From Actinoallomurus bryophytorum (GTDB lineage Bacteria > Actinomycetota > Actinomycetes > Streptosporangiales > Streptosporangiaceae), in NCBI RefSeq assembly GCF_006716425.1, contig NZ_VFOZ01000001.1:4960001-5024000 (forward strand): DNA of 64,000 bases, read 5' to 3'. Below the pieces are notes generated by a model. It was not told the origin of the DNA, ran no database searches, and saw only the letters and a list, made by a program, of their open reading frames with translations. A program made the position numbers and the translations under genes. Of this stretch, positions 17,472 through 35,150 are shown piece by piece; position 1 is the first letter of the stretch; each line of letters starts with the position of its first letter.

Positions 17472-18872
17472 ATGTCCTTCCCCGACAGGGTGATCCAGGT
17501 GCTGCTGACGGACCAGGACCGGATCGCGGTGGAGCACGGACCGCGCACGGTCACGCGTGGTGAGCTGCTCGCCATGATCGGCAAGGTGGCGGCCGGGCTG
17601 CGCGCCGCCGGGCTCGGTCCCGGCAGCGGTGTCGCCATGGAGCTCGGCGTCAGCCCCGAATCGCTCGCCGCCTACCTCGCCGGGTACGCCTCCGGCTGCC
17701 GGGTCCTCGGTGTCCGTCCCGGTCTCAGCCGGGCGCAGCAGCGCCACCTGATCGACGGCGGCGTCGAGCAGGTGCTCACGGACGAGGCCGTCGCGAAGCT
17801 GCTGCGTGGCCCGGCCGAGCCCGTCGACGTGCGCGCGCGCCCGCAGGACGTCGCGCGGCTCATCCACACCAGCGGCAGCACCGGGCGGCCCAAGGGCTGC
17901 GCGCAGACCTACGCCGCGATGTCGGCGCACTGGTCCTGGGGCGGCGCGTGGGGTCCCGCGACGGCCGACCTCGCCGCGCGCATGGACCGGTACCTGCTCT
18001 TCGGCACCCTGGCCAGCGCGGTCGTGCAGGACTTCGCCGCCCTCTGCCTGTTGCACGGCGGCACGGCGGTGATCCCGGAGCTCGGCGAGGGCCCGCTGTT
18101 CCCCGATGTGATCGAACGCCTGCGGATCAGCGCGTCCATCATGAACGTGCCACGGCTCTACCAGATGCTGACCGCACTGAGCGAGAAGCCCGTGGACACC
18201 GAAAGCCTCCGGGCGCTGGTCGTCTCCGGTTCGCCGCTGGCGCCGCACCGGCTCGCCGAGACGGCCGAACGGCTCGGCCCGGTCGTGTTCCAGTCCTACG
18301 GGCAGACCGAGACCGGCAACCTGGCCCTCCTGACACCGGCCGACATCGCCGCAGGCGTCCTGGACGCCGTGGGGCGGCCCCAGTCGGGCGTCGAGATCGA
18401 CATACGGGACGGTGAGATCTTCGCCCGCAGCCCGTACCAGATGACCGGGTACTGGCGGGATCCGGACCAGACCGCCGAGGTGCTCGTGGACGGCTGGGTA
18501 CGGACCCGGGACCTCGGTCACTTCGACGACGCGGGGTTCCTGCACCTGAGCGGACGTACGCGTGACGTGATCATCGTGGACGCCCTGCCGGTCTACGCCG
18601 GGCCGATCGAGCAGGTGCTCGCCTCGCTGCCCGACGTCGACCAGGCGTACGTGGTGGGCACGCCGGACGATCGCCGTGGCGAGGCGGTGCACGCCTTCGT
18701 CGTCCCCCGTGACGGGCGGGTGCCCGACAGGGCGGTCCTGTCCGCGGCCGTCCGTGACGCGCTCGGGGAGTCGAGCGTGCCGCAGACCATCGAGTTCGTC
18801 CCCGAGGCCCCGATGGCACCCAGCGGTAAGCCGGATAAACGCGCTCTGCTGGTCCTTTATCCGCGGCCTTGA
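17472..18872 (+). CDS. Adenylate-forming acid-CoA ligase (AMP-dependent synthetase)
   Basis: A 466-residue ANL-superfamily enzyme that would activate a carboxylic acid as acyl-AMP and pass it to CoA or another acceptor. Motifs: P-loop LIHTSGSTGRPKG near residue 133, SYGQTE (A5), GYWRDPDQT, TRDLG (A7), SGRTRDVI (A8), and the C-terminal catalytic Lys in APSGKPDKRA (A10). It is shorter than typical 500-550-residue ligases because the N-terminal subdomain is trimmed. No carrier-protein gene is nearby, so CoA is the likely acceptor. It leads a one-strand run of oxidative enzymes, separated from the next by 96 bp holding alternative hairpins. The substrate acid is unknown. Confidence 0.9.
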   Translation: MSFPDRVIQVLLTDQDRIAVEHGPRTVTRGELLAMIGKVAAGLRAAGLGPGSGVAMELGVSPESLAAYLAGYASGCRVLGVRPGLSRAQQRHLIDGGVEQVLTDEAVAKLLRGPAEPVDVRARPQDVARLIHTSGSTGRPKGCAQTYAAMSAHWSWGGAWGPATADLAARMDRYLLFGTLASAVVQDFAALCLLHGGTAVIPELGEGPLFPDVIERLRISASIMNVPRLYQMLTALSEKPVDTESLRALVVSGSPLAPHRLAETAERLGPVVFQSYGQTETGNLALLTPADIAAGVLDAVGRPQSGVEIDIRDGEIFARSPYQMTGYWRDPDQTAEVLVDGWVRTRDLGHFDDAGFLHLSGRTRDVIIVDALPVYAGPIEQVLASLPDVDQAYVVGTPDDRRGEAVHAFVVPRDGRVPDRAVLSAAVRDALGESSVPQTIEFVPEAPMAPSGKPDKRALLVLYPRP

Positions 18873-18918
18873 CTCAGGGAAAAGTTGCCTCTTGGCATAT
18901 GTCGCAAACAAGAGTACT

Positions 18919-18955
18919 TTGTTGACGGCTCAAAGATTGACTGTTCAACAATCTT
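18919..18955 (+). promoter_or_regulatory. Leader with two mutually exclusive hairpins before the FAD monooxygenase
   Basis: Two perfect 7-bp inverted pairs compete for the same bases: TTGTTGA (18919-18925) with TCAACAA (18945-18951), and AAGATTG (18933-18939) with CAATCTT (18949-18955). The second would cover the bases leading into the TTGGAGG ribosome site (18954-18960) of the gene starting at 18969. The leader is AT-rich against its surroundings. It could be a translational attenuator or overlapping operators. Confidence 0.4.
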
Positions 18956-18968
18956 GGAGGCGTTGGCC

Positions 18969-20564
18969 GTGCCAGAGGGTTCCGTCCTCGACTATCTGAT
19001 CATCGGAGCGGGGCCTGCCGGGCTCCAACTGGGCTACTACCTGCAGCGATCGGGTCGTGACTATTTGATCGTCGAGCGGGGGACGGCGCCGGGCACGTTC
19101 TTCACCAGCTTCCCCCGGCACCGCCAGCTGATCTCCATCAACAAGGTCCACACCGGTTGGGACGATCCTGAACTCAACCTGAGAATGGACTGGAACTCTC
19201 TGCTGAGTGACGAAGCCGCGCCATTGTTCACGGACTACTCGCCGCGGTATTTTCCCGCCGCCGACGACATGGTCCGCTATCTGGCCGACTTCGCCGGCGA
19301 GCACGGACTGGCGATCCGCTATGGCACGAATATCGCGCGGATCGGCCGGCCCGAGGTGTTCGAGGCCGTGGCCGACGACGGCGCCGTGATCCGCGCCAAG
19401 CACGTGATCATGGCGACCGGGGTCTCCCGGCCCTATGTGCCCGACATCCCCGGGATCGAGACGGCGGAGCTGTACTCGGACGTGTCGGTCGACCCCTCCG
19501 AGTTCACCGGCAAGCGGGTGCTGATCATCGGCAAGGGCAACTCGGCGTTCGAGACCGCCGACAACCTCGTCGAGACCGCGTCGGTCATCCATGTCGCGGG
19601 GCCCAGCTCGATCAGGATGGCCTGGCAGACGCACTTCGTGGGCCATCTGCGGGCCGTCAACAACAACTTCCTGGACACCTACCAGCTCAAGTCGCAGAAC
19701 GCGATCCTGGACGGGAACATCCTGGGCATCGAGCGCCGGGCCGACGCGTCGTACCTGGTGACGGTCAGCTTCTCGCGTGCCGACGAGGTCACCAAGGACA
19801 TCCCGTACGACCGGGTCATCGCCGCGACCGGGTTCCGCTTCGACGCCTCGATCTTCGAGCCGGAGTGCCGCCCCGAGATGGTGATCCGCGGCCGTTTCCC
19901 CGCGCAGACCCCCGAGTGGGAGTCGACCAACGTGCCCGGCCTGTACTTCGCCGGGACGATCACGCAGCCCCGTGACTTCAAGAGGTCCACCAGCGGCTTC
20001 ATCCACGGCTTCCGCTACGGCGCCCGCGCGCTGCACCGGATCCTGGAGCGGCGCCACCACGGCGAGACCTGGCCGCACGACGAGCTCGCGGGCACACCGG
20101 CGGCGGTCGGCGAGGCGGTGCTGGAGCGGGTCAACCGCACGTCCGCGCTGTGGCAGCTGTTCGCCTTCCTCGGCGACGTCGTGACGGTGGCGCCGGACGG
20201 CACCGCGCGGTACTGGCCCGAGATCCCGGTCGACCTCGTGGAGACGGCCGTCAAGGACGGGTTCTTCGGCGAGGTCGACGGCCACCTGGTCGTGACGCTG
20301 GAGTACGGCAAGGACCACGACCGCCTCGACCCGTTCGACATCAACGGGCGGCGGATCGCCCAGAACGACGCCGGGAACGCCCTCGACGGCCGCTACCTGC
20401 ATCCGGTGCTACGGCACTACCGCGCGGGCACGCAGGTCGGCGAGCACCACATCACCGAGAACCTGGAGAACGAGTGGACGCACGAGACCGTGCACCGCGC
20501 GCCGCTGTTCGCCTTCCTGGAGCAGGCACTGCCGGGCGATGAGGCGTCCGGCGCACGGGGATGA
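18969..20564 (+). CDS. FAD-dependent monooxygenase, FOXRED2-like
   Basis: A 531-residue flavoprotein with FAD-binding GAGPAGLQLGYYL at residues 13-25, an FAD-domain stretch SFPRHRQLISINKVHTGWDD, and a second dinucleotide-binding motif IIGKGNSAFETAD near residue 187 for NAD(P)H. ATGFRFD and the late GLYFAGTITQPRDFKRSTSG motif close the FMO-like fold. The combination fits the FOXRED2/ERFAD-like group better than Baeyer-Villiger enzymes. The C-terminal 130 residues are outside the FMO core. The GTG at 18969 is chosen because TTGGAGG lies 9 nt upstream; an in-frame upstream start lacks a ribosome site. Its TGA overlaps the next gene's ATG, so the two enzymes are co-translated. Confidence 0.85.
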   Translation: MPEGSVLDYLIIGAGPAGLQLGYYLQRSGRDYLIVERGTAPGTFFTSFPRHRQLISINKVHTGWDDPELNLRMDWNSLLSDEAAPLFTDYSPRYFPAADDMVRYLADFAGEHGLAIRYGTNIARIGRPEVFEAVADDGAVIRAKHVIMATGVSRPYVPDIPGIETAELYSDVSVDPSEFTGKRVLIIGKGNSAFETADNLVETASVIHVAGPSSIRMAWQTHFVGHLRAVNNNFLDTYQLKSQNAILDGNILGIERRADASYLVTVSFSRADEVTKDIPYDRVIAATGFRFDASIFEPECRPEMVIRGRFPAQTPEWESTNVPGLYFAGTITQPRDFKRSTSGFIHGFRYGARALHRILERRHHGETWPHDELAGTPAAVGEAVLERVNRTSALWQLFAFLGDVVTVAPDGTARYWPEIPVDLVETAVKDGFFGEVDGHLVVTLEYGKDHDRLDPFDINGRRIAQNDAGNALDGRYLHPVLRHYRAGTQVGEHHITENLENEWTHETVHRAPLFAFLEQALPGDEASGARG

Positions 20565-21631
20565 CGGGGCTCGCCCGGTTCGAGCGGCGCGCCAGGGAGC
20601 TCCTCGACCCGGTGCACTACGACTTCTTCGCCGGTGGAGCGGGGGACGAAGTCGCGCTGGCCGACAACGAGGAGGCGTTCGGCAGGCTGGCGCTCCTGCC
20701 CCGCATCCTCCGTGACACCACGGGCGGATCGACCGCGGTGACCCTGCTGGGCGATGCCTGCGAGATGCCGATCTTCGTCTCGCCCACGGCGTTCCACCGG
20801 CTCGCCCATCCCGGCGGTGAGCGCGCGACCGCGCGGGCGACCGCGGCGGCGGGCACCGTCCTGGTCACCGGAACGGCCGCCACCACGCCCGTCGCGGACG
20901 TCGTCGCGGAGGCGCGCGAGATCCGCGAGGACGCCACGGTGTGGTTCCAGCTCTACCTGCAACCTGACCCCGAGGTCACGGCCGCGCTGGTCCGCCGGGC
21001 CGAACGCGCCGGGTGCACCGCCCTTGTGGTCACCGCGGACTCGCCGGTGTTCGGCCGCCGGGGCCGCGACGACCGCAACGGCTTCCACGACCTGCCGCCG
21101 GGGCTGTATGCCGAGAACATGCGCGACCTGCCCGGCGGCGCGGACCGCGTACGCCCGATCGAGATGTCCGGCGCCTTCACATGGGAGCACCTCGACCGCC
21201 TGCGGGCACGTACGGACCTGCCGATCGTGGTCAAGGGCGTCCTGCATCCCGAGGACGCGCGGCTGGCACTGCGGCACGGCGTCGACGCGGTGCTCGTGTC
21301 CAACCACGGCGGCCGCCAGCTCGACGTCGCCCCCGCGACCGTGGACGCCCTGCCGGCGGTGGCCGAGGCCGTACGCGGCCGGATCCCCGTGCTGCTCGAC
21401 GGCGGCATCCGGTCCGGCGCCGACGCCGTCATGGCACTCGCGCTGGGCGCCACGGCGGTCGGCGTGGGACGCCCCGTCCTGTGGGGCCTGGCCGCCGGAG
21501 GAGAGAAGGGCGTCGGCGAGGTCCTGGAACTCCTGCGCGACGAGCTCGTGCACACGATGGCGCTGTGCGGCGCCGCGTCGCCCGGCGACCTGACCGGCGA
21601 TCTGGTCACGCGGCGAGGGGCGCCACGGTGA
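20561..21631 (+). CDS. FMN-dependent alpha-hydroxy-acid oxidase/dehydrogenase
   Basis: A 356-residue TIM-barrel flavoenzyme of the lactate/glycolate/mandelate oxidase family, converting a 2-hydroxy acid to the 2-oxo acid. All core residues are visible: HYDFFAGGAGDE (substrate Tyr), WFQLYLQPD, VVTADSPVFGRRGRD, IVVKGVL (Lys near the flavin) and SNHGGRQLD with catalytic His near residue 248 and substrate Arg beside it. LLDGGIRSGADAV and GVGRPVLWG bind the FMN phosphate. It overlaps its neighbours by 4 nt on both sides (ATGA at 20561, GTGA at 21628). It therefore belongs to the same enzyme set as the FAD monooxygenase and the P450. Substrate not deducible. Confidence 0.92.
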   Translation: MTGLARFERRARELLDPVHYDFFAGGAGDEVALADNEEAFGRLALLPRILRDTTGGSTAVTLLGDACEMPIFVSPTAFHRLAHPGGERATARATAAAGTVLVTGTAATTPVADVVAEAREIREDATVWFQLYLQPDPEVTAALVRRAERAGCTALVVTADSPVFGRRGRDDRNGFHDLPPGLYAENMRDLPGGADRVRPIEMSGAFTWEHLDRLRARTDLPIVVKGVLHPEDARLALRHGVDAVLVSNHGGRQLDVAPATVDALPAVAEAVRGRIPVLLDGGIRSGADAVMALALGATAVGVGRPVLWGLAAGGEKGVGEVLELLRDELVHTMALCGAASPGDLTGDLVTRRGAPR

Positions 21632-23031
21632 GGTCACTGCTCGGGGCGGGAGCGGCCGGCGTGGCGCTGTGGGTGGTCCAGCGCTGGCTGCCACGGTCGG
21701 TGGTCGCGCTGCGAGTGAGCATCTTCACCAGGGTCAACGGCGACGACGAGGTGACGCTGCCCGGCGAGCTCGGCGGCGTGGCGGCGGGCTCAGAGGTGTT
21801 CGAGCGCGTCTACGCCGATCCGGCGGCGAACGGCAGGAGCCGCGGAGCCGCGCTGTCGGACCTGTTCTGGTACTGGCTCGCGCCCGGACCCGAGGTCCAC
21901 CAGGAGCATCTCGAGGCCGGGCCGCGGTACGACGAGGTCGCCCGTACGACGCGGGAGATCCTGTCGATGCCGACCCGTTCGATCGAGGACCTGGCGGCCG
22001 GTGCCACGGAGCGGGTGCTGCGGGAGCTTCCCGGCGCACCGCTGACCGTGACCCGGCTGCGCGACCTGATGATGCCGGTGTGGGCGGAGTTCTTCTACGA
22101 AGTGGTCTTCCGCGAGCCCTGCCCTCGTACCGCGCGCGACCTCATCGTCGGCAACGCCGACGACGTGGTCAGCTCGCTCAAGTGCACCGGCCTGCGGCAC
22201 ATGCGGCGCCGCGACCGCCTCACCCGGTATCTGCGGAGGCGGATCGACGCCGGTGACGTGCCGCACCGGCTGCCGGGCGTCCTCACGCCCCAGGAACAGG
22301 CGTACTACCTGCAGGGCACGTTCTTCAACACCGCCGTCGTCCAGTCCTCCGAGGGCATGGCGCACCTGCTGCTGGCCATCGCCCAGCATCCGGATGTCCA
22401 GCGACGGCTGGTGTCCGATCCGCACGCGCGGTACCTCGGCCACGTTCTCGAGGAGGTCCTGCGCGAGTATCCGCTCTTCGGCATCGCGCACCGGATCACC
22501 ACCGCCGACATCGACGCCGGACCGGCCGTCATCCCGGCGGGCTCGGTGGTCTGCTTCAACTACCCGGCCTACGAGCGGCTCGGCCAGCCCGACCCGGACC
22601 GGTTCGACCCCGGCCGGTGGGAGGGGCGGTCCGTCAAGAACGCGCACCACATCCCGTTCGGCGTCGCGGCCAACCGGTCGTGCCCGGCGTGGCGGCTCTC
22701 GCCGATCGCGATGCGCGCGGTGACACGCGTGGTCCTGCGCCGTTATCGGCTGCGCTCGTCCGTCTCGCACACGCGCTCCATCCCGCACCGGGCACCCTGC
22801 CTGCTGCTCGACGCCGAGGACCGGCCACCGGCGTGGCGGGTACGCACGGCGCTCGCCGTCATGCGCGTCCGCGACCGGTACGAGGACGTGACGCGCAGCG
22901 TCATGCAGCTCGTGCTCGGCACCTGGATGGTGCTCGACGCACGCCGTCTCAAGTTGTGCACGAACCACTTCGCCACCCATCCACTGGACGGCGCGCCGCG
23001 CCGGAGCGCCTGCCCGGTCGACCACGGCTGA
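21628..23031 (+). CDS. Atypical cytochrome P450, membrane-anchored and C-terminally extended
   Basis: A 467-residue P450-like protein. The K-helix ExxR is in EEVLREYPLFG (near residue 280) and the thiolate Cys is Cys352 in PFGVAANRSCPAW. Two things are odd. The heme loop has one extra residue between Phe and Cys and lacks both canonical glycines (A-A and C-P-A instead of G and C-x-G). The I-helix (FFNTAVVQSSEGMAHLL) has no acid-Thr pair, Val-Gln standing there. An N-terminal hydrophobic segment (LLGAGAAGVALWVVQRWL) suggests membrane anchoring, and about 55 residues beyond the usual end form an extension. It may be a peroxygenase- or isomerase-like P450. The GTG start overlaps the oxidase stop. 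Confidence 0.82.
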   Translation: MRSLLGAGAAGVALWVVQRWLPRSVVALRVSIFTRVNGDDEVTLPGELGGVAAGSEVFERVYADPAANGRSRGAALSDLFWYWLAPGPEVHQEHLEAGPRYDEVARTTREILSMPTRSIEDLAAGATERVLRELPGAPLTVTRLRDLMMPVWAEFFYEVVFREPCPRTARDLIVGNADDVVSSLKCTGLRHMRRRDRLTRYLRRRIDAGDVPHRLPGVLTPQEQAYYLQGTFFNTAVVQSSEGMAHLLLAIAQHPDVQRRLVSDPHARYLGHVLEEVLREYPLFGIAHRITTADIDAGPAVIPAGSVVCFNYPAYERLGQPDPDRFDPGRWEGRSVKNAHHIPFGVAANRSCPAWRLSPIAMRAVTRVVLRRYRLRSSVSHTRSIPHRAPCLLLDAEDRPPAWRVRTALAVMRVRDRYEDVTRSVMQLVLGTWMVLDARRLKLCTNHFATHPLDGAPRRSACPVDHG

Positions 23032-23060
23032 AGCGCGTACGACATCGAGGAGAGCGGGAC

Positions 23061-24317
23061 ATGACCAACACCGAACTCGCCCCTGTCTTCTTCCTCGCCA
23101 TCGTGGTCATCCTGGTGGCCTGCCGCGTGTTCGCCCTGCTGCTCCGCGGCGCGCAGCAACCCCCGGTGGTGGCCGAGATGATCACCGGTGTCATCCTCGG
23201 CCCGTCCCTGCTCGGGCAGCTGTGGCCGGGCGCCGAGACCTACCTTTTCCCGCAGGCGCTGCGGCCCGTCCTCTACGTGGTCGGCCAGATCGGCCTCGTC
23301 GTGTTCATGTTCCAGAGCGGGTACGAGCTGCGCGTGGGCCGGCTGCGCAGCCTGGCCGGCACGGCCGGTCCGATCGCGGCCGCCGGCATTCTCGTACCGG
23401 GCGTGCTCGCGGTGGGGCTCGTGGTCGCCGCGCGCGGCTGGTTCGACGTGTCGGTGCGCGGAACACCTTTCTTCGTCACGGCGCTCTTCGTCGGTGTCGC
23501 CGTCGCCATCACCGCGTTCCCGATGATGGCCCGGATCATCACCGAGCGGGGACTCGCCGGAACCCACTTCGGCGCCGTCGCGCTCGCGTCGGGCGCGATC
23601 GACGACGCGGTCGCCTGGATCCTGCTGGCCGCCGTGCTCAGCCTGGCGTCGGCGAGCCTGCATCCGGTCCTGCTCGCCGTCGGCGGCACCCTGCTGTTCG
23701 TCGGTCTGCTCATCGTGGTCCACCGCGGCCTCGGGCGCGTGCTGGCTCCCCGCTTCTCCCCGGAGACGCTGCTGCTGGTCGCCATCGTGCCGCTGCTGCT
23801 GGCCGCCTGGTACACCGACCGGATCGGCCTGTACGCGGTGTTCGGCGCGTTCGCCCTCGGCATGGTCTTTCCGCGTACGGCCGAGACCGAGCAGGTGATG
23901 GCCGTGATCACGCCGCTGGGCCGGGTGGTGTTCCTGCCGCTGTTCTTCACCTACTCGGGGCTCAACACGAACTTCGCGCTGCTCAACAACGCGAGCGTCC
24001 TGCTGTTCGCCCTCGGCTGCGTCGTCGTCGCGATCGCCGGCAAACTCGTCGCGTGCACCGTCGCCGCGAGGGCCGTCGGCGAACCCTACGACTCGGCCGT
24101 ACGCATCGGCGTCCTGATGAACGCGCGTGGCCTGATGCAGCTGATCGCGCTCAACGTGGGCCTCGCGGCCGGCATCGTCTCGTCCCGGGTGTTCAGCGTG
24201 CTCGTCCTGGTCGCGCTCGTGACCACCGTCATGACCGCGCCGCTCCTGGCACTGCTCGACCGGCGCGCCGGCGTATCGCTGCCGGACGAGGATCCCCGGC
24301 CGGCACCGGTGACGTGA
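23061..24317 (+). CDS. Cation/proton antiporter, CPA2 family (KefB/NapA-like)
   Basis: A 418-residue membrane protein with 12-13 hydrophobic segments and the Na_H_Exchanger fold: VVAEMITGVILGPSLLG early, then ALASGAIDDAVAW, which carries the paired Asp-Asp of the ion site. It ends right after the last helix and lacks the TrkA-N/KTN domain of KefB/C, so it resembles the short actinomycete antiporters found inside or beside antibiotic clusters. GAGGAGAGC precedes the ATG at 23061, 29 bp after the P450 stop. It could export product-coupled ions or help self-protection. Its presence with the oxidative enzymes is the reason to treat the run as a cluster. Confidence 0.9.
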   Translation: MTNTELAPVFFLAIVVILVACRVFALLLRGAQQPPVVAEMITGVILGPSLLGQLWPGAETYLFPQALRPVLYVVGQIGLVVFMFQSGYELRVGRLRSLAGTAGPIAAAGILVPGVLAVGLVVAARGWFDVSVRGTPFFVTALFVGVAVAITAFPMMARIITERGLAGTHFGAVALASGAIDDAVAWILLAAVLSLASASLHPVLLAVGGTLLFVGLLIVVHRGLGRVLAPRFSPETLLLVAIVPLLLAAWYTDRIGLYAVFGAFALGMVFPRTAETEQVMAVITPLGRVVFLPLFFTYSGLNTNFALLNNASVLLFALGCVVVAIAGKLVACTVAARAVGEPYDSAVRIGVLMNARGLMQLIALNVGLAAGIVSSRVFSVLVLVALVTTVMTAPLLALLDRRAGVSLPDEDPRPAPVT

Positions 24318-24347
24318 GTAGACTCCCCCGCTGGGAAGGAACCTCAT

Positions 24348-24746
24348 ATGAGCGAGAACGGCCTGGTCACGGTGGAGAGCGGCCACTCCGTACCTGAGAC
24401 GATCGACCGGCTCGCCGCCACCGTCACGGCCGCGGGCCTGAAGGTGTTCGCCCGCGTCGACCACGCGGCCGGCGCGACGGAGGCGGGGATGTCCCTGCGG
24501 CCGACGGAGCTTCTGATCTTCGGCAATCCACGGGGCGGAACACCTTTGATGCAGGATCGGCAGACCGCCGGCATCGACCTCCCGGTGAAGGCCCTGGCCT
24601 GGGAGGACGAGGCCGGCAAGGTGTGGCTGACCTACAACACGGCCGCCTGGGTCGCCCTGCGCCACGACCTCGGCGAGGAGAGCCGGGCCGCCGTCACGGC
24701 CATCGACGAGGGCCTGCGGAAGGTGACCGGCCGCGCAGCCGGCTGA
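24348..24746 (+). CDS. DUF302 domain protein
   Basis: A 132-residue soluble protein of the DUF302 (TT1751-like) family, with VPETIDRLAATVTAAGLKVFARVDHAAGA, LIFGNPRGGTPLM and DLPVKALAWEDEAGKVWLTY. The family has a small alpha/beta fold and is thought to bind a small molecule or metal, with no proven reaction. GAAGGAACC lies before the ATG. Only 30 bp separate it from the antiporter stop, so it is probably the last gene of the oxidative-enzyme operon. A 387-bp gap follows. Confidence 0.85.
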   Translation: MSENGLVTVESGHSVPETIDRLAATVTAAGLKVFARVDHAAGATEAGMSLRPTELLIFGNPRGGTPLMQDRQTAGIDLPVKALAWEDEAGKVWLTYNTAAWVALRHDLGEESRAAVTAIDEGLRKVTGRAAG

Positions 24747-25133
24747 CGCTCCTCGAATCCAGCGGGGACCGGCACCGTCGATCACAGTCCACCCGAAGCC
24801 GGGCGCGAAGCCGGGACGGCGATCGCCACCGCGACCGCAGACATCCGAGGTCTGAGGCTCCTCAAGGGTGTGGATTGCCGACCTTTCGGAGATACTGATC
24901 GGCATCGCACACCACTCGCGTACCCCCACCAGGCCGTGTCCCGCCTGGGATGGCGCAACTTCCTGGCGGATTCGAGCAACAAGACGATCCGAAACAGCAA
25001 ACAGTCTTGACTGTTGAGAAATATCCGAGCAATGTTCGTCAGCGACCTGTTTTCCCGCCTCGGTCCCCGCACGGCCCAGGGTGGGTGACCAAGGCCCATC
25101 ACGATCCCCGTACCCGCCAGAGAGGATCGCGTG
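24747..25133. other. 387-bp intergenic region with palindrome
   Basis: No gene is supported. The first 200 bp are ordinary GC-rich DNA. From about 24950 the region is AT-richer and contains the 16-bp palindrome at 25000-25015. It should hold the terminator of the preceding operon, though no strong hairpin is seen, and the promoter of the beta-helix/GH95-like pair. Confidence 0.5.
25000..25015. promoter_or_regulatory. Palindrome AACAGTC-TT-GACTGTT, operator/promoter candidate
   Basis: Perfect 7-bp arms around TT, about 118 bp upstream of the beta-helix gene. TTGACT inside it could also serve as a -35 box. The 9-mer TTGACTGTT (25007-25015) occurs identically at 18937-18945 in the leader of the FAD monooxygenase, so one regulator may see both. 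Confidence 0.4.
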
Positions 25134-26663
25134 ATGACTGCTGGCCGAAGATCGGTCAAGTACCTGTCCATGCTGGTGGCGGCCGCCGCCACCCTCGTCG
25201 TCCCCGGGACCGTGCAGAGCGCCGGCGCCGCCGCCTGCATCCCCTCCGGCACCGAGGCCGGCATCAACGCCGCTCTCTCAGGAACCGGCGCGACCGCCGT
25301 CCTGTGCCCCGGTGCCGTCTTCACCCTCACCAACCCGGTCACCTTCACCGCCCCGAACCAGGTGATCGAGACTCAAGGGCTGCCCACGGACGCCAACCGC
25401 GCCAACCTGAAGGTCGGAGGTTCGCTCACCACGGCGATCAACGGCAACGGCCAGTCCGGCGTGACGGTGGAGAACATCCAGATCGACGGTGGCCGTCCCG
25501 TCCTCGGCCGCCTCGACGGCGGCGCGCTGATGGAGATGGGCGCCTCCGGCTCGAACCAGACCGTGCAGAACGTCTACGCGCACGACACCCGTAGCTGGTC
25601 GACGCTGCACATCATCGAGGGCCCCGTCACGAACAGCACCCCGGCCTGCCAGGGCGCGAAGATCCTGAACAACACCATCGGCCCGGCCGGCACCGACACG
25701 CCCAGCGGCACGTGGGCCGACGGCATCTCGCTGGCCTGCGGCACCAGCACGGTCCAGGGCAACACCGTGCAGGACGCCACCGACGGCGGCATCGTGATCT
25801 TCGGTGCGCCCGGCTCGTCGGTGAAGAACAACACGATCGTGGCGAAGTCCCGGACGCTGCTCGGCGGCATCAACCTCGTCGACTACGCGCCCATGAACGG
25901 CAACTACACCGGCACCACCGTGACCGGGAACACCATCAACGCCCAGAGCGCCTTCATCAAGGTCGGCATCGCCATGGGGCCGCAGGTGTGGGGCTGCGGG
26001 ACGGGCACCAACTACGGCGCCTCGGTGACCGGCAACACGCTGCAGGGCGCGCACATGGGCTACGGGTACGCCGTCAACGGCGTACGCGACTGGACCGTGA
26101 CCGGCAACACCGACACCTCCACGCACGTCGGCACGCCCAATGCCGGCTGCGGTGGCACGGTCTCGGCGCCCGGCCGCTTCCAGGTCCAGGCATCGGCCTC
26201 CAGCACGCTGCAGCCCGAGTTCACCAGCGCCCAGCTGACCTACGTCCTCGGCGTCGCCGAGCATCCCCCGGCCGGGGCGGTGATCAGCCTGCGCTCCCAC
26301 GCCAACGGCAGGTACGTCACGGCGGACGGCACCGCGCCGCTGATCGCCAGTGGCACGAGCGTCGGCACGGCGCAGCAGTTCGACGAGATCGACCAGGGCG
26401 GCGGCGCGATCGCGCTGCGGGCCCACGCCAACAACCAGTACGTCACCGCCGAGAACGGAGGCGCGGCGGCACTGGCCGCCAACCGCGGCGCCATCGGCCA
26501 GTGGGAGACGTTCGCGCTCGTCCACAACGGCGACGGCAGCGTCAGCCTGCGGGCGAACGCGAACAACGACTACGTCACGGCGGAGAACGCGGGCGCGGCA
26601 CCCCTGATCGCGAACCGCACGGCCATCGGGCCATGGGAAGAGTTCGACCTCATTCAGAACTGA
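25134..26663 (+). CDS. Secreted beta-helix protein with C-terminal fascin-like domain
   Basis: A 509-residue exported protein. After a signal peptide (SMLVAAAATLVVPGTVQSAGA) comes a right-handed parallel beta-helix (about 35-370) with repeated N-G-N/T-G-N-T turns (NNTIGPAG, VQGNTVQD, VTGNTINAQ, VTGNTLQGA). The last 120 residues hold three units of the pattern SLRAxANxxYVTAExxGxxPLIANR, a fascin/beta-trefoil-like sugar-binding module. Such proteins are usually polysaccharide lyases or glycan hydrolases, but I see no diagnostic catalytic triad. The start is ATG 25134 (a GTG directly precedes it) after AGAGGA. It shares an operon with the GH95-like enzyme 16 bp downstream. Confidence 0.82.
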   Translation: MTAGRRSVKYLSMLVAAAATLVVPGTVQSAGAAACIPSGTEAGINAALSGTGATAVLCPGAVFTLTNPVTFTAPNQVIETQGLPTDANRANLKVGGSLTTAINGNGQSGVTVENIQIDGGRPVLGRLDGGALMEMGASGSNQTVQNVYAHDTRSWSTLHIIEGPVTNSTPACQGAKILNNTIGPAGTDTPSGTWADGISLACGTSTVQGNTVQDATDGGIVIFGAPGSSVKNNTIVAKSRTLLGGINLVDYAPMNGNYTGTTVTGNTINAQSAFIKVGIAMGPQVWGCGTGTNYGASVTGNTLQGAHMGYGYAVNGVRDWTVTGNTDTSTHVGTPNAGCGGTVSAPGRFQVQASASSTLQPEFTSAQLTYVLGVAEHPPAGAVISLRSHANGRYVTADGTAPLIASGTSVGTAQQFDEIDQGGGAIALRAHANNQYVTAENGGAAALAANRGAIGQWETFALVHNGDGSVSLRANANNDYVTAENAGAAPLIANRTAIGPWEEFDLIQN

Positions 26664-26679
26664 TGTGGTGGGCAAAAAC

Positions 26680-29415
26680 ATGAACACCCGCGGAAGACAC
26701 CCGATCCGGTACGTGCTGGCGCTCCTCGCGCTGGTGGCCGGGACCGTGAACGTCGTGGCCATCGCCCCGGCACTGGCCTCCACCTCCGACGCCGCCTTCG
26801 ACAGCTCGACCGGCGCCCTGAGCGTCGACTACGCGAGCTACCTGGCCAAGCACGACATCGTCTACAACCGGCCCAACACCAACCCCGCGTACGGGCTCAC
26901 CGTCGGCAACGGCCGTACGGGCGCCATGGCCTGGAGTCAGAACGGCCTGACCATGCAGGTCTCCGGCGCCGACCTGTCCGAGCAGTCGGCGTACGCGGCC
27001 GGCCTGGTCAACCTGTACTCCAATCCCGGTATGGACACGGGCTACTCCACCTACCAGCAGCGGCTGTCGCTGTACGACGGAGTGCTGACGACAAAGTACG
27101 ACTCGAACCGTACGGTGACCGTCATGGGATCGCCGAACTCGGAGGTCATGGGCATCCACGTCGAAGACGGCCGGAGCAACGTCTCCAGCGTGGCGCTGGA
27201 CCTGAGCCTGTGGGATCCGAGCACGGTCAGCAACGTCGCCGACGTGCCGGACCTGAACACCTGGAAGACCTACTCCACCTTCGCCGACTCCAGCGGCGTG
27301 GGCCTGAGCCGTGGCCAGACCGACGCGAACAACTTCGGCTACACGCTCGCGGCGACGGTCGAGGGCGCGAACTACACCAGCCAGACCGTGAACGGCTCGA
27401 AGGTGCGTCTCAACATCACGCCGTCCTCCAGCTACACGATCTGGTTCACCGCGGCGAGCCGGCTCAACGCCTCGAACCACGACTCGGTCGCCCAGGCACG
27501 CAGCCAGCTCTCCTCCGTGAAGAACACCGGATACGCGACGACGTTCGCCAACTACAAGAACTTCTGGCACGGCTTCTGGCAGAAGTCCTTCGTGTCGTAC
27601 CAGAACAGCTCGGGCGACGCGGACTACATGGAGAACATCTACTACCTGGCCACGTACATGATCGCCTCGGGCGGGTACGGCAACTACCCGTTCCACTTCA
27701 TCAACGGCGTCTACCGCTCCACCGGTGACCAGACCAAGTGGAGCAACGCCTACTGGTACTGGAACCAGCGCGACGTCTACAACTCGTTCCTCGCCTCGAA
27801 CCACACCGACCTGATGAAGACGTTCAACAACCTCTACAGCCGCAACTACGCCGCGCTGAAGTCGTACACGAACACCCGGTACGGCGTGGACGCCCTGTGG
27901 GTGCCGGAGACCATGGGCTGGGACGGCAACGCACGGGGGACCGTGGGCAGCGACTACACCAAGAACATCCTGTCCACGGGCACCGAGGCCGCCTTCAACA
28001 TGTACCTGCAGTACCGGTACACCAACGACGCGACCTACCTGCGCAACACCGCCTACCCGTTCATGCGCGACGTCGTACGCTTCTACGCCGCCAAGCTGAC
28101 CAAGGACGGCAGCGGCAAGTACAACATGGCCAGCTCGAACGCGCATGAGACGTACTGGAGCGTCCCGGGCGCGATCACCGACCTGGCCGCGGTGAAAAGC
28201 CTGTTCCCGGTGACCATCCAGGCGAGCCAGACCCTCGGCCTGGACGCCGACCTGCGGAGCCAGTGGCAGAGCATCCTGGACAACCTGGCGCCGTACCCGA
28301 CCGACGGCAGCGCGTACCTGCCGCACACGCCGCCGATCGCCCAGACGAGGAACGACGAGAACGTCGCGTCGGAGGCGATCTGGCCCTACAACACGACCGG
28401 GATCGGAGCGCCGGACTACCAGACGGCGCTCAACACCTGGAACAAGCGGCCGTTCCCGTACGACAACGTGTGGGCCAACGACGCGATCCAGGCGGCCCGG
28501 CTGGGCCTGGGCGACCAGGCGTACAACGGCATGAAGACGATGCTGCAGAAGTACCAGAACTTCCCCAACGGGCTGACCGCCAACACGAACGGCGTCTTCG
28601 AGTACCTCGGTGTGCACCTGTCGGTGATGAACGAGTCGCTGCTGCAGAGCTACAACGACAAGATCCGGGTGTTCCCCGCGGTGCCGTCGGACTCCTCGTT
28701 CGCGGGCAAGTTCACGCTGCTGGCCAAGAACGGTTTCCAGGTCAGCTCCGAACGCGAGGGCGGGGAGATCAAGTACGTCGGCCTCAAGAGCCTGTACGGC
28801 AACTCCGCCACGGTGGTCAACCCGTGGGGGACCCAGCAGGTACGGGTACGCAGGGCCTCCGACAACGCGATCATCACGACCTCGTCGAGCGGTGAGATCA
28901 CCTTCAGCACGGCGGCGAACACGGTGTACGTCGTGGAGCGCACCGCCAAGCCGCTGAGCTCCTACTCGTCCACCCGGCTCACGGGTAGCGCGAACCAGGA
29001 CGTGAAGTCGCTGAAGAACACGAGCTCCACGCTGGGCCTGGGCAAGACCACGAGCGGGACGGTCAACGACACGGCACTGACGTACGACGCCAACTGGTTC
29101 GGCAGCAGCGGCCGCGGGCTGGGCGACTTCAACGACGACGTGCACTACAGCTACACGAACGGAGCGACGGCGCAGTACACGTTCACCGGCACCGGAGTCG
29201 ACTACCTGTCGGAGAAGAACGGTGACATGGGCAACGTCGACGTCTACATCGACAACGTCTTCCAGACCAACGTCAACCTCAACGTGAGCGGCGCCCGGCA
29301 GTCACAGCAGACCGTCTACCACAAGACCGGGCTGGCGGCCGGCACCCACACGATCAAGATCGTCAACAAGACCACCTCGGTCGGGATCGTGGACGCCCTC
29401 AAGATCACCCCCTGA
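26680..29415 (+). CDS. Secreted GH95-like glycoside hydrolase
   Basis: A 911-residue secreted enzyme. After the signal peptide (YVLALLALVAGTVNVVAIAP) an N-terminal beta-sandwich with NPAYGLTVGNGRTGAMAWSQ (the opening pattern of GH95) leads to an (alpha/alpha)6 barrel at about 300-660, containing NAYWYWNQRDVYNSFLAS, VPETMGWDGNARG and NVASEAIWPYNTTG. A beta-domain and a C-terminal jelly-roll sugar-binding module (about 760-910, ending GTHTIKIVNKTTS) follow. GH95 members are alpha-1,2-L-fucosidases or alpha-L-galactosidases. Similarity is partial, so the specificity is open. ATG 26680 is taken as start; GTGs at 26665/26668 are possible. A strong hairpin follows at 29431. Confidence 0.78.
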   Translation: MNTRGRHPIRYVLALLALVAGTVNVVAIAPALASTSDAAFDSSTGALSVDYASYLAKHDIVYNRPNTNPAYGLTVGNGRTGAMAWSQNGLTMQVSGADLSEQSAYAAGLVNLYSNPGMDTGYSTYQQRLSLYDGVLTTKYDSNRTVTVMGSPNSEVMGIHVEDGRSNVSSVALDLSLWDPSTVSNVADVPDLNTWKTYSTFADSSGVGLSRGQTDANNFGYTLAATVEGANYTSQTVNGSKVRLNITPSSSYTIWFTAASRLNASNHDSVAQARSQLSSVKNTGYATTFANYKNFWHGFWQKSFVSYQNSSGDADYMENIYYLATYMIASGGYGNYPFHFINGVYRSTGDQTKWSNAYWYWNQRDVYNSFLASNHTDLMKTFNNLYSRNYAALKSYTNTRYGVDALWVPETMGWDGNARGTVGSDYTKNILSTGTEAAFNMYLQYRYTNDATYLRNTAYPFMRDVVRFYAAKLTKDGSGKYNMASSNAHETYWSVPGAITDLAAVKSLFPVTIQASQTLGLDADLRSQWQSILDNLAPYPTDGSAYLPHTPPIAQTRNDENVASEAIWPYNTTGIGAPDYQTALNTWNKRPFPYDNVWANDAIQAARLGLGDQAYNGMKTMLQKYQNFPNGLTANTNGVFEYLGVHLSVMNESLLQSYNDKIRVFPAVPSDSSFAGKFTLLAKNGFQVSSEREGGEIKYVGLKSLYGNSATVVNPWGTQQVRVRRASDNAIITTSSSGEITFSTAANTVYVVERTAKPLSSYSSTRLTGSANQDVKSLKNTSSTLGLGKTTSGTVNDTALTYDANWFGSSGRGLGDFNDDVHYSYTNGATAQYTFTGTGVDYLSEKNGDMGNVDVYIDNVFQTNVNLNVSGARQSQQTVYHKTGLAAGTHTIKIVNKTTSVGIVDALKITP

Positions 29416-33088: not shown

Positions 33089-33532
33089 CTAGCGGGGCAG
33101 TTTCACCACGGTCACGAAGAAGTCGTCGATCTGGCGCACTATCCGGATGAAGCTGTCGAAGTCCACCGGCTTGGTGACGTACGCGTTGGCGTGCAGGGCG
33201 TAGCTGTTGAGGATGTCCTCGTCCGCCTCCGACGTCGTCAGGACCACGACCGGGATGGAGCGCAGCTCCGGGTCGGCCTTGATGTCCCTGAGCACCTCGC
33301 GGCCGTCTTTGCGCGGGAGGTTGAGGTCGAGGAGGATCAGGTCGGGCCGGGCGGCGTTGGCGTACACGCCCTGCCTGCGGAGGTAGGCCGCGGCCTCCTC
33401 GCCGTCGCTGACGATGTTGAGGTTGTTCTTGACCTTGTTGTCGGCGAACGCCTCTTTCGTCAGGAGCACATCGCCCGGGTCGTCCTCCACGAGGAGCACC
33501 TCGATGGATTGCGAGCGGTCAGTCATCGTCAT
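33089..33532 (-). CDS. Stand-alone response regulator receiver (Rcp1-like)
   Basis: A 147-residue CheY-fold protein without an output domain: acidic pocket VEDDPGD, phospho-Asp69 in LILLDLNLP, Thr/Ser switch in [12 protein letters not shown] and Lys in YVTKPVDF. The extended PRKDGREVL and [13 protein letters not shown] features are typical of the Rcp1-type regulators that shuttle phosphate from CHASE3/phytochrome-like kinases. Its start lies inside the end of the kinase gene (14-bp overlap), so the two are made together. It should be the kinase's direct target. How it connects onward to the SpoIIE-type phosphatase of the same operon is not shown. Confidence 0.92.
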
Positions 33533-35150
33533 CTCCAGCGGGAAGGGTCCAGCGGATGGTCGTACCCGGGTGCTCCGGATCGGCGGGCTCGGAGACGTCG
33601 AGCCAGATCCGGCCGCCGTGGTGCTCGACGATCTTCTTGCACATCGCCAGGCCGATCCCGGTCCCGGTGTAGACGTCCTGAGGATGCAGGCGCTGGAAGA
33701 TGAGGAAGATCCGGTCGCCGTACTTGGCGTCGATCCCGATCCCGTTGTCGGAACAGGAGAACTCCCACATCTCGCCGTCCCGGCGGGCGCCGATGTGCAC
33801 CCGCGGTGGCTCCTCGCCGTGGAACTTCAGGGCGTTGCCGATGAGGTTCTGCAGGAGCTGGGTGTACTGGGTCTGGTCACCGGGCAGCGCCGGCAGCTCG
33901 TCCGCGGTCACCTCCGCCCCGGTCTCCTCGCGCAGCTGGGACACGCTGTACAGGGCACGGTCCAGGCATGCCTGCATGTTGACCGTCTGCTCGCGTCGCT
34001 CCAGGCGCCCGACGCGGGAGAAGTTCAGCAGGTCGTTGATGAGCACCTGCATCCGCTTGGCGCCGTCGACGGCGAAGTCGATGTACTGGCGGCCACGGTC
34101 GTCCAGCTTGTCGCTGTACTTGCGCTCGAGCATCTGGCAGAAGCTTGCCACCTTGCGCAGGGGCTCCTGCAGGTCGTGGCTGGCGACGTACGCGAACTGC
34201 TCCAGCTCGGCGTTGGACCGGCGCAGCTCGGTGGCCTGGTCGTCCAGCCGGCGGCGTGCCTCGGAGGTGAAACGCCACTCCTCCATGATGCGCTGCCGCA
34301 TGCCGTCGACGATGCTCGCGAGCTCGACGAACTCCACCGATCCGTGCACGTCGAGGGGATGGGCGAAGTCGCCGTGGGCCACCGCCCCGACGCTGCTCTC
34401 CAGGGCCGACAGCGGGCGGAGCACCGCCCGGCGGATCAGCCACGCGAGTCCGAGCGCGGACAGGACCGTGATCAGGACCGCGATGGCCAGGGACCAGTAG
34501 ACGTCGGTGGCCCTGGCCTTCAGCCGGGCCGCGAACCTGCCGTACAGCGCGGTCTGGTCCTTCTGCAGCGCCGCGTTGGTACTGCGGATCTCGGCGAACG
34601 GCTGCTCGCCGAAGTCGGGGGAGGAGCTCTTCGTGCCCTGGCGTACCGTCGCCGCCAGCGGATCGGCGTACTTCGTACGCCAGGCCGCCGCCGCCGCGTC
34701 CAGCGCCGCGACGTCCGCGCGCGAGCGGTCGGCGCCGGGCACACCACCGAGGAGGCGCCGCATGGTGGCCGAGGTACGGGCCTGTTCGGCGATCTTCTGG
34801 CGGTAGGTGGCGAGCGAGGCCGGGTCCCCGGAGGCCGCGTACGCGCGGATCGCCGTGTCCTGCTGGCCGATGGCGCCGCTCAGCTGGGGTTGCAGGAGCG
34901 CCGCGGGGACGATGCGTTCGGTGACGGTGTCGCGGATCATGGACTGGCGGTAGATCGCGACTCCGGCCACCGCCAGAGAAGAGATCAGCAGGATCGCCAC
35001 GATCAGGCCGCCGAGGCTGAACCACTGCCCGATCCGTACGCGGCCCAGCCGGCCTCTATCGTCCGCGTCCGTGCGCGGGACCATGATGGGCGGCCCGACG
35101 ATGCGCACCTCGGGCGCGGGCGCGTCCAGGCTCTCGCCGGTCGTCGTCAC
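33519..35150 (-). CDS. Membrane sensor histidine kinase with CHASE3-like sensor and HAMP
   Basis: A 543-residue sensor kinase. TM1 is near residues 40-65, followed by a helical extracellular domain of about 130 residues ([21 protein letters not shown] pattern, CHASE3-like). Then come TM2, HAMP ([20 protein letters not shown]), a coiled-coil stretch, HisKA with [12 protein letters not shown] (His near residue 325), and HATPase with N-box [10 protein letters not shown]1 DNGIGID and G2 [14 protein letters not shown]3 kinases with the SHDLQEPL box usually phosphorylate a single-domain receiver, which is encoded next (33089). The gene overlaps the upstream receiver-phosphatase gene by an ATGA. The stimulus is unknown. 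Confidence 0.93.

Follow-up and report, generated by a model that had tools for sequence, protein, structure and literature searches.

Five adjoining genes of Actinoallomurus bryophytorum, which encode an acid-activating ligase (LIG), a flavoprotein (FOX), a 2-hydroxy-acid oxidase (HAO), an atypical cytochrome P450 and an antiporter-family protein (CPA), constitute, in our judgment and with somewhat better than even confidence, one member of a specialised-metabolite cassette that moves horizontally among actinomycetes and lacks a PKS or NRPS core. They occupy positions 17472-24317 on the plus strand of the window, by which we mean the whole stretch of 64,000 nucleotides that was analysed. Why might such a cassette matter? 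Should a compound come out of it, this would be both widespread among actinomycetes and new; the cassette also brings with it a family of P450s whose active site departs from the standard one and whose reaction is open to direct test. No earlier description of the cassette or of its enzyme combinations was found among the literature matches listed, which cover part of the literature. The initial annotation had proposed a biosynthetic cluster of six genes. The conserved FOX-HAO-P450 trio, the ligase and transporter that usually accompany it, the patchy distribution, the missing core and the aberrant P450 all speak for that proposal; membership of the sixth gene, which encodes a DUF302 protein, was not borne out.

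Gene Layout

Six plus-strand genes run from 17472 to 24746, and all of the open reading frames and Pfam domains originally named for them are present. LIG (17472-18872), an ANL-superfamily acid-activating enzyme, has the domains AMP-binding and AMP-binding_C; FOX (18969-20564) is an FAD/NAD(P)H flavoprotein (Pyr_redox_3, 173.7 bits); HAO (20561-21631) is an FMN-dependent 2-hydroxy-acid oxidase (FMN_dh, 401 bits); the P450 (21628-23031), which has a GTG start, matches p450 at 54 bits; CPA (23061-24317), a CPA2-type cation/proton antiporter-family membrane protein, matches Na_H_Exchanger at 164.6 bits; and the adjoining gene (24348-24746) matches DUF302 at 67.8 bits. For FOX, the mechanical open reading frame begins at TTG 18885, and a GTG at 18969 has GGAG 9 nt upstream. 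The claim that three of the genes are joined by 4-nt overlaps is true of FOX, HAO and P450 (FOX/HAO and HAO/P450), and the gaps elsewhere are 96 nt (LIG-FOX), 29 nt (P450-CPA) and 30 nt (CPA-DUF302). Pattern scans, which are little informative for actinomycetes, gave no promoter-like site and two terminator-like sites, both within the antiporter gene. None of the 22 window proteins scanned with Pfam has a PKS, NRPS, terpene or RiPP core domain, just as the initial annotation had it.

A Conserved Trio and Its Partners

Could these genes simply be unrelated neighbours, each with a housekeeping role of its own? Every domain family of the set is common in actinomycetes, which lends the idea some appeal; what speaks against it is conservation, collinearity and gene overlap across genera. 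Our main sample consisted of 60 loci retrieved by FOX alone (a few are near-duplicates, e.g., two Nocardia brasiliensis records). FOX, HAO and P450 occur together in 57 of these and are collinear in all 57; when the P450 is the anchor, FOX and HAO adjoin it in 24 of 29 loci, with one exception being a contig end. That is, the trio is conserved together from either anchor, the very point on which the biosynthetic proposal had staked itself. Of the 58 FOX/HAO pairs called, that of the window among them, 49 keep the 4-nt overlap, and HAO overlaps the P450 start or lies within 10 nt of it in 38 of 56. Because the order recurs so consistently and the FOX/HAO overlap is kept, the FOX>HAO>P450 arrangement is far beyond chance. 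Pairwise divergences covary as well (with host kinship ignored, rho is 0.65 for FOX-HAO, 0.66 for FOX-P450 and 0.60 for HAO-P450, against permutation maxima of 0.24, 0.22 and 0.21, respectively). For the trio, the reading as unrelated neighbours is refuted; for LIG and CPA it is unlikely; and as an account of the whole set we hold it to be very improbable.

It is probably true of the DUF302 gene only. We place that gene outside the conserved set because all 60 FOX-anchored loci lack a relative of it, and its inclusion in the proposed cluster was accordingly not borne out; none was found either in 29 short P450-anchored loci (reaching about 1.5 kb past the P450) or in 11 further loci. Several of all these loci overlap one another.

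The partners of the trio are more variable. A LIG relative is present in 52 of the 60 FOX-anchored loci, a transporter (CPA or MFS) in 48, a CPA relative in 47 and a linked OmpR-type two-component pair (response regulator and histidine kinase) in 28, and a second FOX is among the genes added in relatives' loci. LIG is optional in the set; it is absent from the stretch in the same-genus loci L128-L132 (five examined of the six same-genus genomes that have the P450). HAO is lacking beside FOX and P450 in L020, L028 and L097, and FOX is lacking in L132. Since LIG, HAO or FOX can each be missing, no single chemistry needs all of the parts. When we sought a relative with annotated genes, one Nonomuraea gerenzanensis record was found, without gene annotation at the locus.

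Probable Horizontal Transfer

The distribution of the cassette is patchy. Records of Nocardia, Streptomyces, Actinacidiphila, Lentzea, Saccharothrix, Actinosynnema, Umezawaea, Crossiella, Nonomuraea and Actinomadura contain the set; a phylum-wide sample of 396 genomes yielded 6 with a FOX match at an E-value of 1e-260 or better, and of 297 genomes from the order, 76 have the P450. The nearest Nocardia copies are 74-78% (FOX), 69-71% (P450) and 67-71% (LIG) identical to those of the window, and same-genus copies are 58-68% (FOX) and 60-61% (P450) identical, LIG being absent there. The window's FOX, P450 and LIG are thus nearer to Nocardia than to copies from their own genus, which makes horizontal transfer of the cassette likely on sequence grounds. 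As a point on the other side, the window HAO is equally near to the copies in Saccharothrix, Actinacidiphila, Streptomyces, Umezawaea and Nocardia.

Two Flavoproteins

HAO is a clear member of the FMN-dependent 2-hydroxy-acid oxidases by sequence (291.6 bits to glycolate oxidase 1gyl), and its catalytic residues are kept. If, as we assume, the catalytic Tyr/Tyr/Asp/Arg/His/Arg numbering of glycolate oxidase applies, the window copy has the full set (Y20, Y132, D160, R167, H249 and R252), and these are conserved in 45, 49, 58, 44, 57 and 57 of 58 family members, respectively. It thereby resembles the glycolate and 4-hydroxymandelate oxidases in family and in active site and differs from them in being placed in a fixed trio.

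FOX, judged by its sequence and its predicted model (pLDDT 84.9), is probably a class B-type monooxygenase. It shares an N-terminal two-domain fold with single-component FAD/NADPH monooxygenases (4a9w and ArsO) and with YpdA. Its top ten Foldseek rows (the flavin monooxygenases 3d1c and 4a9w, YpdA and FNRs) cover 341-390 columns of its 531 residues, and its C-terminal region, falling outside these best structural alignments, sets it apart from 4a9w, ArsO and YpdA alike. Its scores also fall far under the NCBIfam cut-offs (80.9 of 425 bits for ArsO).

An Aberrant P450

The P450 was described at the outset as aberrant, and the whole family bears that description out. We take the canonical markers to be the acid-alcohol pair of the I-helix and a Cys loop of the form FGxGxRxCxG (two ordinary P450s were aligned here). 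In place of the pair stand V238 and Q239, invariant in a 43-row alignment, and the Cys-ligand loop, FGxxxNRxCPA, is one residue longer than the canonical one and has Ala for the last Gly; the protein therefore has neither marker of the standard O2-activating type. Its predicted model (pLDDT 84.9) has a long C-terminal helix. A membrane anchor was considered and rejected: the N-terminus is hydrophobic, yet only 9 of 43 members average 1.6 or more across 19 residues, and the window copy averages 1.22.

How might such a P450 work? It could be a peroxygenase fed by the H2O2 of the co-translated HAO, a sub-mechanism that fits a biosynthetic or a catabolic role equally and that we regard as rather unlikely. 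The absent acid-alcohol pair, the intact catalytic residues of HAO and its close junction with the P450 start fit this idea, as does a scan for ferredoxin motifs of Fe-S types other than 2Fe-2S, which gave none at positions 10000-32000 of the window. (A dedicated ferredoxin in relatives was likewise set aside: motif matches in 11 of 60 loci, from a scan of the same scope, look like chance frames.) Structural scores may lean the same way. Among the best 50 Foldseek rows, from one aligner, the 12 that we take from their titles to be CYP152 peroxygenases have the highest TM-scores (0.54-0.60 normalised as TMq, 11 of them 0.58-0.60), and the other 38 reach 0.46-0.57, including the rank 1 row, P450PL2 (unclassed), at 0.54; the best value, 0.60, is modest and is not first by E-value. 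The P450 resembles CYP152 enzymes (P450 BSbeta, SPalpha and OleT) in these scores and in having no acid-alcohol pair.

It differs from them in its shorter Cys loop and in lacking the Arg-Pro dyad in the I-helix, presumably the CYP152 signature: T-A stands there in the 15 family rows displayed (T-A-V-V-Q overall), whereas R-P is seen in five of five fetched homologues of the CYP152 profile, which score under that profile's curated cut-off. The profile itself, NF053744, matches 11 of 43 family members weakly (best 1.4e-5) and the window copy not at all at E-values up to 0.001. A sequence profile of the P450 ranks CYP3A4 and CYP11B2 first, with no chain labelled CYP152 in the best 60 of 232 matches. 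Also counting against a peroxide feed are the three loci in which the P450 has no HAO beside it.

Ligase, Lyase and the Direction of the Chemistry

The nearest solved relative of LIG by sequence is the amide bond synthetase McbA. This is what we take the best PDB chains, 6sq8 and 6h1b (232.8 and 229.7 bits; next enzyme, 157.7), to be, in agreement with the K483A change visible in 6h1b. The ANL core is present, the adenylating A10 lysine (K453) is kept in 52 of 52 copies and, in the A8 loop, all 52 copies carry Ala where CoA ligases have a glycine to which we ascribe a role in those enzymes. LIG shares its A10 lysine with the amide bond synthetases McbA and ShABS (PMC6282839, PMC10804368), its nearest solved relatives. 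According to PMC6282839, the amine entrance of McbA has the carboxylates E221, E400 and D463. The window LIG is acidic at all three positions (E203, D370 and E433, in that order), and its family is acidic in 46, 9 and 28 of 52 copies; the family differs from McbA at E400, where 43 of 52 have Asn, and at D463, acidic in those 28 only.

In relatives, a tyrosine-ammonia-lyase-like gene lies in 15 of the 60 loci, counted by tblastn because the gene caller put an antisense open reading frame over the lyase in L082 and L124. All 12 called proteins have Ala-Ser-Gly and His-Leu, the latter aligned with the His-Leu of 2o6y, which we take to be RsTAL and from which we take Ala-Ser-Gly and the His-Leu selectivity pair.

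Does the set build something or break it down? Aromatic catabolism also uses a ligase, a hydroxy-acid oxidase and monooxygenases, and the cassette might be one for catabolism or detoxification, taking up and oxidising an aromatic or 2-hydroxy acid; LIG would then make a CoA ester, and the compound would be what the sensor kinase responds to. The linked OmpR-type pairs and the MFS carrier that replaces the antiporter in relatives suit such a role, and catabolic genes may be among neighbours found in fewer than nine loci, mostly outside an annotation that centred on recurrent families. Against it, the families found in at least eight loci besides the set comprise two regulatory ones (response regulator and kinase), the ammonia-lyase, a sulfotransferase and one further family; the lyase produces an acid rather than consuming one; and the Ala of the A8 loop argues against a CoA ligase. 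We consider catabolism an unlikely alternative, though the most serious one.

On the preferred, biosynthetic reading, LIG would adenylate a carboxylic acid, probably aromatic, and hand it to an amine or a thiol; 4-coumarate could be supplied by the lyase-like gene in the 15 loci that have it. FOX would insert oxygen at N or C, HAO would convert a 2-hydroxy acid to a 2-oxo acid and H2O2 and the P450 might oxidise or rearrange further without standard O2 activation. CPA, or the MFS carrier in relatives, might move the product or protect the cell, and the linked two-component system in relatives would probably switch the cassette on. More speculatively (we think it slightly less probable than the peroxygenase idea by itself), an H2O2-producing HAO may be coupled to a new, non-CYP152 peroxygenase-type P450 with Val-Gln and, together with FOX and an amide-forming LIG, yield a tyrosine- or hydroxycinnamate-derived product class missed by core-enzyme mining. 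A coumarate-type precursor has a counterpart in the actinomycete naringenin pathway of S. clavuligerus (PMC4640377), which uses a chalcone synthase; the window proteins scanned include none.

CPA is a possible exporter (118.9 bits to TIGR00932, under the NCBIfam cut-off); in the same-genus loci L128-L131, an MFS transporter takes its place, and the trio is retained. Neither a two-component pair nor an ammonia-lyase lies beside the set in the window, and an orthologue of the lyase elsewhere in the genome was rejected, the ammonia-lyase-family proteins there being only 31-35% identical. At 33089-35150 of the window lies an unrelated-looking two-component pair with CHASE3.

Conservation of the Cassette

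The conserved, mobile cassette that we find in this part of the 9.47-Mb genome (the window covers its positions 4960001-5024000) is real, and its most likely role is the formation of a specialised metabolite. The initial annotation had read window positions 17472-24746 as a possible six-gene biosynthetic cluster, and for five of those genes the idea largely stands: in order on the plus strand, an AMP-binding ligase (LIG), a FAD monooxygenase-like flavoprotein (FOX; Pfam Pyr_redox_3), an FMN-dependent 2-hydroxy-acid oxidase (HAO; FMN_dh), a P450 and a CPA2-type antiporter-family protein (CPA; Na_H_Exchanger). The last gene, DUF302, falls away, as tblastn placed it in 0 of 60 FOX-anchored loci. 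Overlaps of 4 nt join FOX to HAO and HAO to P450, and the coordinates give spacings of 96 nt (LIG-FOX), 29 nt (P450-CPA) and 30 nt (CPA-DUF302). Pfam scans of 22 window proteins found no PKS, NRPS, terpene or RiPP domains. ABC-transporter/FtsX genes and one gene without a Pfam match lie upstream.

FOX alone, used as query against named genomes, yielded the 60 loci (a few of them near-duplicates), whose gene content was read by tblastn with window proteins and flanking genes as queries. FOX was present in 60, HAO in 58, P450 in 57, LIG in 52, CPA in 47, an MFS carrier in 1, a response regulator and a sensor kinase in 28 each, ammonia-lyase in 15 and a sulfotransferase in 8. FOX, HAO and P450 occur together in 57 of the 60, collinear in 57/57; of 58 called FOX/HAO pairs, 49 have a spacing of -4, and HAO and P450 overlap or lie at most 10 nt apart in 38 of 56. 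Three loci lack the complete trio: L044, a 6.3 kb contig that ends inside HAO; L081, which reads FOX-LIG-ammonia-lyase-HK-RR (kinase, regulator) without HAO or P450; and L090, a deltaproteobacterial MAG with a tandem FOX pair, in whose 21 kb stretch neither HAO nor P450 was found. The tandem homologues (L090:9986-13385) are 50% and 44% identical to the window FOX.

Anchoring on P450 instead gave matches at E 1e-20 or better in 76 of 297 genomes of the order, with FOX and HAO within ~1.5 kb in 24 of the 29 best non-window loci. Among the remainder, L020 and L028 lack HAO and have FOX immediately adjoining P450, L021 is without FOX, L031 stops at a contig edge, and L033 has HAO farther off, its short stretch being without FOX.

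Variable Parts

Five same-genus loci (L128-L132) each carry a two-component pair and have no LIG in their 20 kb stretch; in four (L128-L131) an MFS carrier takes the antiporter's place after P450. Since ligase, transporter type and regulators vary in this way, the trio is the core. A DUF6282/amidohydrolase-like gene lies between carrier and regulator at L131:11704-12762, and L132 has an ORF of similar size (348 aa) between regulator and P450.

Thirteen of the 60 loci have a double FOX, 12 of them with ammonia-lyase as well (the exception is L090). The 11 FOX copies labelled as adjoining LIG only form a single clade, apart from most HAO-linked copies; its sister, on tree topology alone, is the HAO-linked FOX of L124. 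All 12 called ammonia-lyase proteins carry an Ala-Ser-Gly motif and a His-Leu pair, the latter aligned with that of 2o6y, Rhodobacter TAL (RsTAL), and these motifs make a predicted supply of 4-coumarate plausible in lyase-bearing loci. The window itself has neither ammonia-lyase nor an adjacent two-component pair. A Sulfotransfer_4-type gene adjoins LIG on the opposite strand in 8 of 60 loci (e.g. L066:7586-8275), where the product might be sulfated.

Origin

In the tree, the window FOX is sister to a seven-locus Nocardia clade, a count that excludes L084, titled Nocardia, which clusters with Lentzea. Window identities to Nocardia exceed those to same-genus loci for FOX (74-78% vs 58-68%), P450 (69-71% vs 60-61%) and HAO (67-70% vs 60-61%); LIG is 67-71% identical to Nocardia, and no same-genus LIG was found. 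By length-weighted identity, HAO is equally near Saccharothrix, Actinacidiphila, Streptomyces and Umezawaea copies (69-70%), and CPA, with no counterpart in the Nocardia stretches, has its nearest relatives in Saccharothrix, Streptomyces and Crossiella (~60%). The Nocardia-like identities and tree, with the differing affinities of HAO and CPA, point to a cassette acquired horizontally and perhaps mosaic. FOX matches at E 1e-260 or better occur in only 6 of 396 genomes sampled in the phylum, the window's included, and distant partial ones in 13 more. Divergence matrices of the trio correlate at rho 0.60-0.66, vs permutation maxima of 0.21-0.24, host phylogeny uncorrected.

Predicted Chemistry

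Because HAO keeps the glycolate oxidase catalytic residues, it is expected to convert a 2-hydroxy acid to a 2-oxo acid and H2O2. In Foldseek, the first two domains of the FOX model share their fold with FAD/NADPH monooxygenases and YpdA; the last ~150 residues fall outside the ten best alignments, judging by their lengths of 341-390 columns.

ExxR and the cysteine are both retained in the P450 family. Against two ordinary P450s aligned with it, its I-helix reads T-A-V-V-Q vs A-G-H-H/E-T and its loop, FGxxxNRxCPA, has one extra residue; the model adds a long C-terminal helix beyond the usual end. Among the matches listed, the top Foldseek TM-scores went to rows presumed from their titles to be CYP152 enzymes (11 of 12 such rows at 0.58-0.60; the other 38, at most 0.57). 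We nevertheless reject CYP152, since its Arg-Pro signature is missing from the family alignment and a profile search ranks CYP3A4 and CYP11B2 first; the enzyme is probably not a standard O2-activating monooxygenase either. HAO could possibly supply it with H2O2, against which stand L020, L028 and L097 (FOX then P450 directly), where P450 has no HAO beside it; these three offer a natural test of the HAO requirement.

Among PDB chains, LIG is nearest to McbA (232.8 bits vs 157.7 for the next enzyme). The window LIG is acidic at all three amine-entrance positions (E203, D370, E433). In McbA, according to PMC6282839, three carboxylates lie at that entrance. Predicted amide formation is a lead only, because the second and third positions are acidic in just 9 and 28 of 52 family members.

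Literature and Neighbouring Genes

Among the literature matches listed, with most subscription journals outside their scope, we found no description of the cassette, and publication elsewhere is possible. The DUF302 protein (24348-24746) matches, below cut-off, positions 140-269, the C-terminal part, of the NCBIfam model for the fluoride efflux transporter CrcB, a name that would mislead annotators. Downstream, a right-handed beta-helix gene and, after a 1 nt gap, a GH95-like glycoside hydrolase gene (25131-29415) form a possible polysaccharide-degrading pair.
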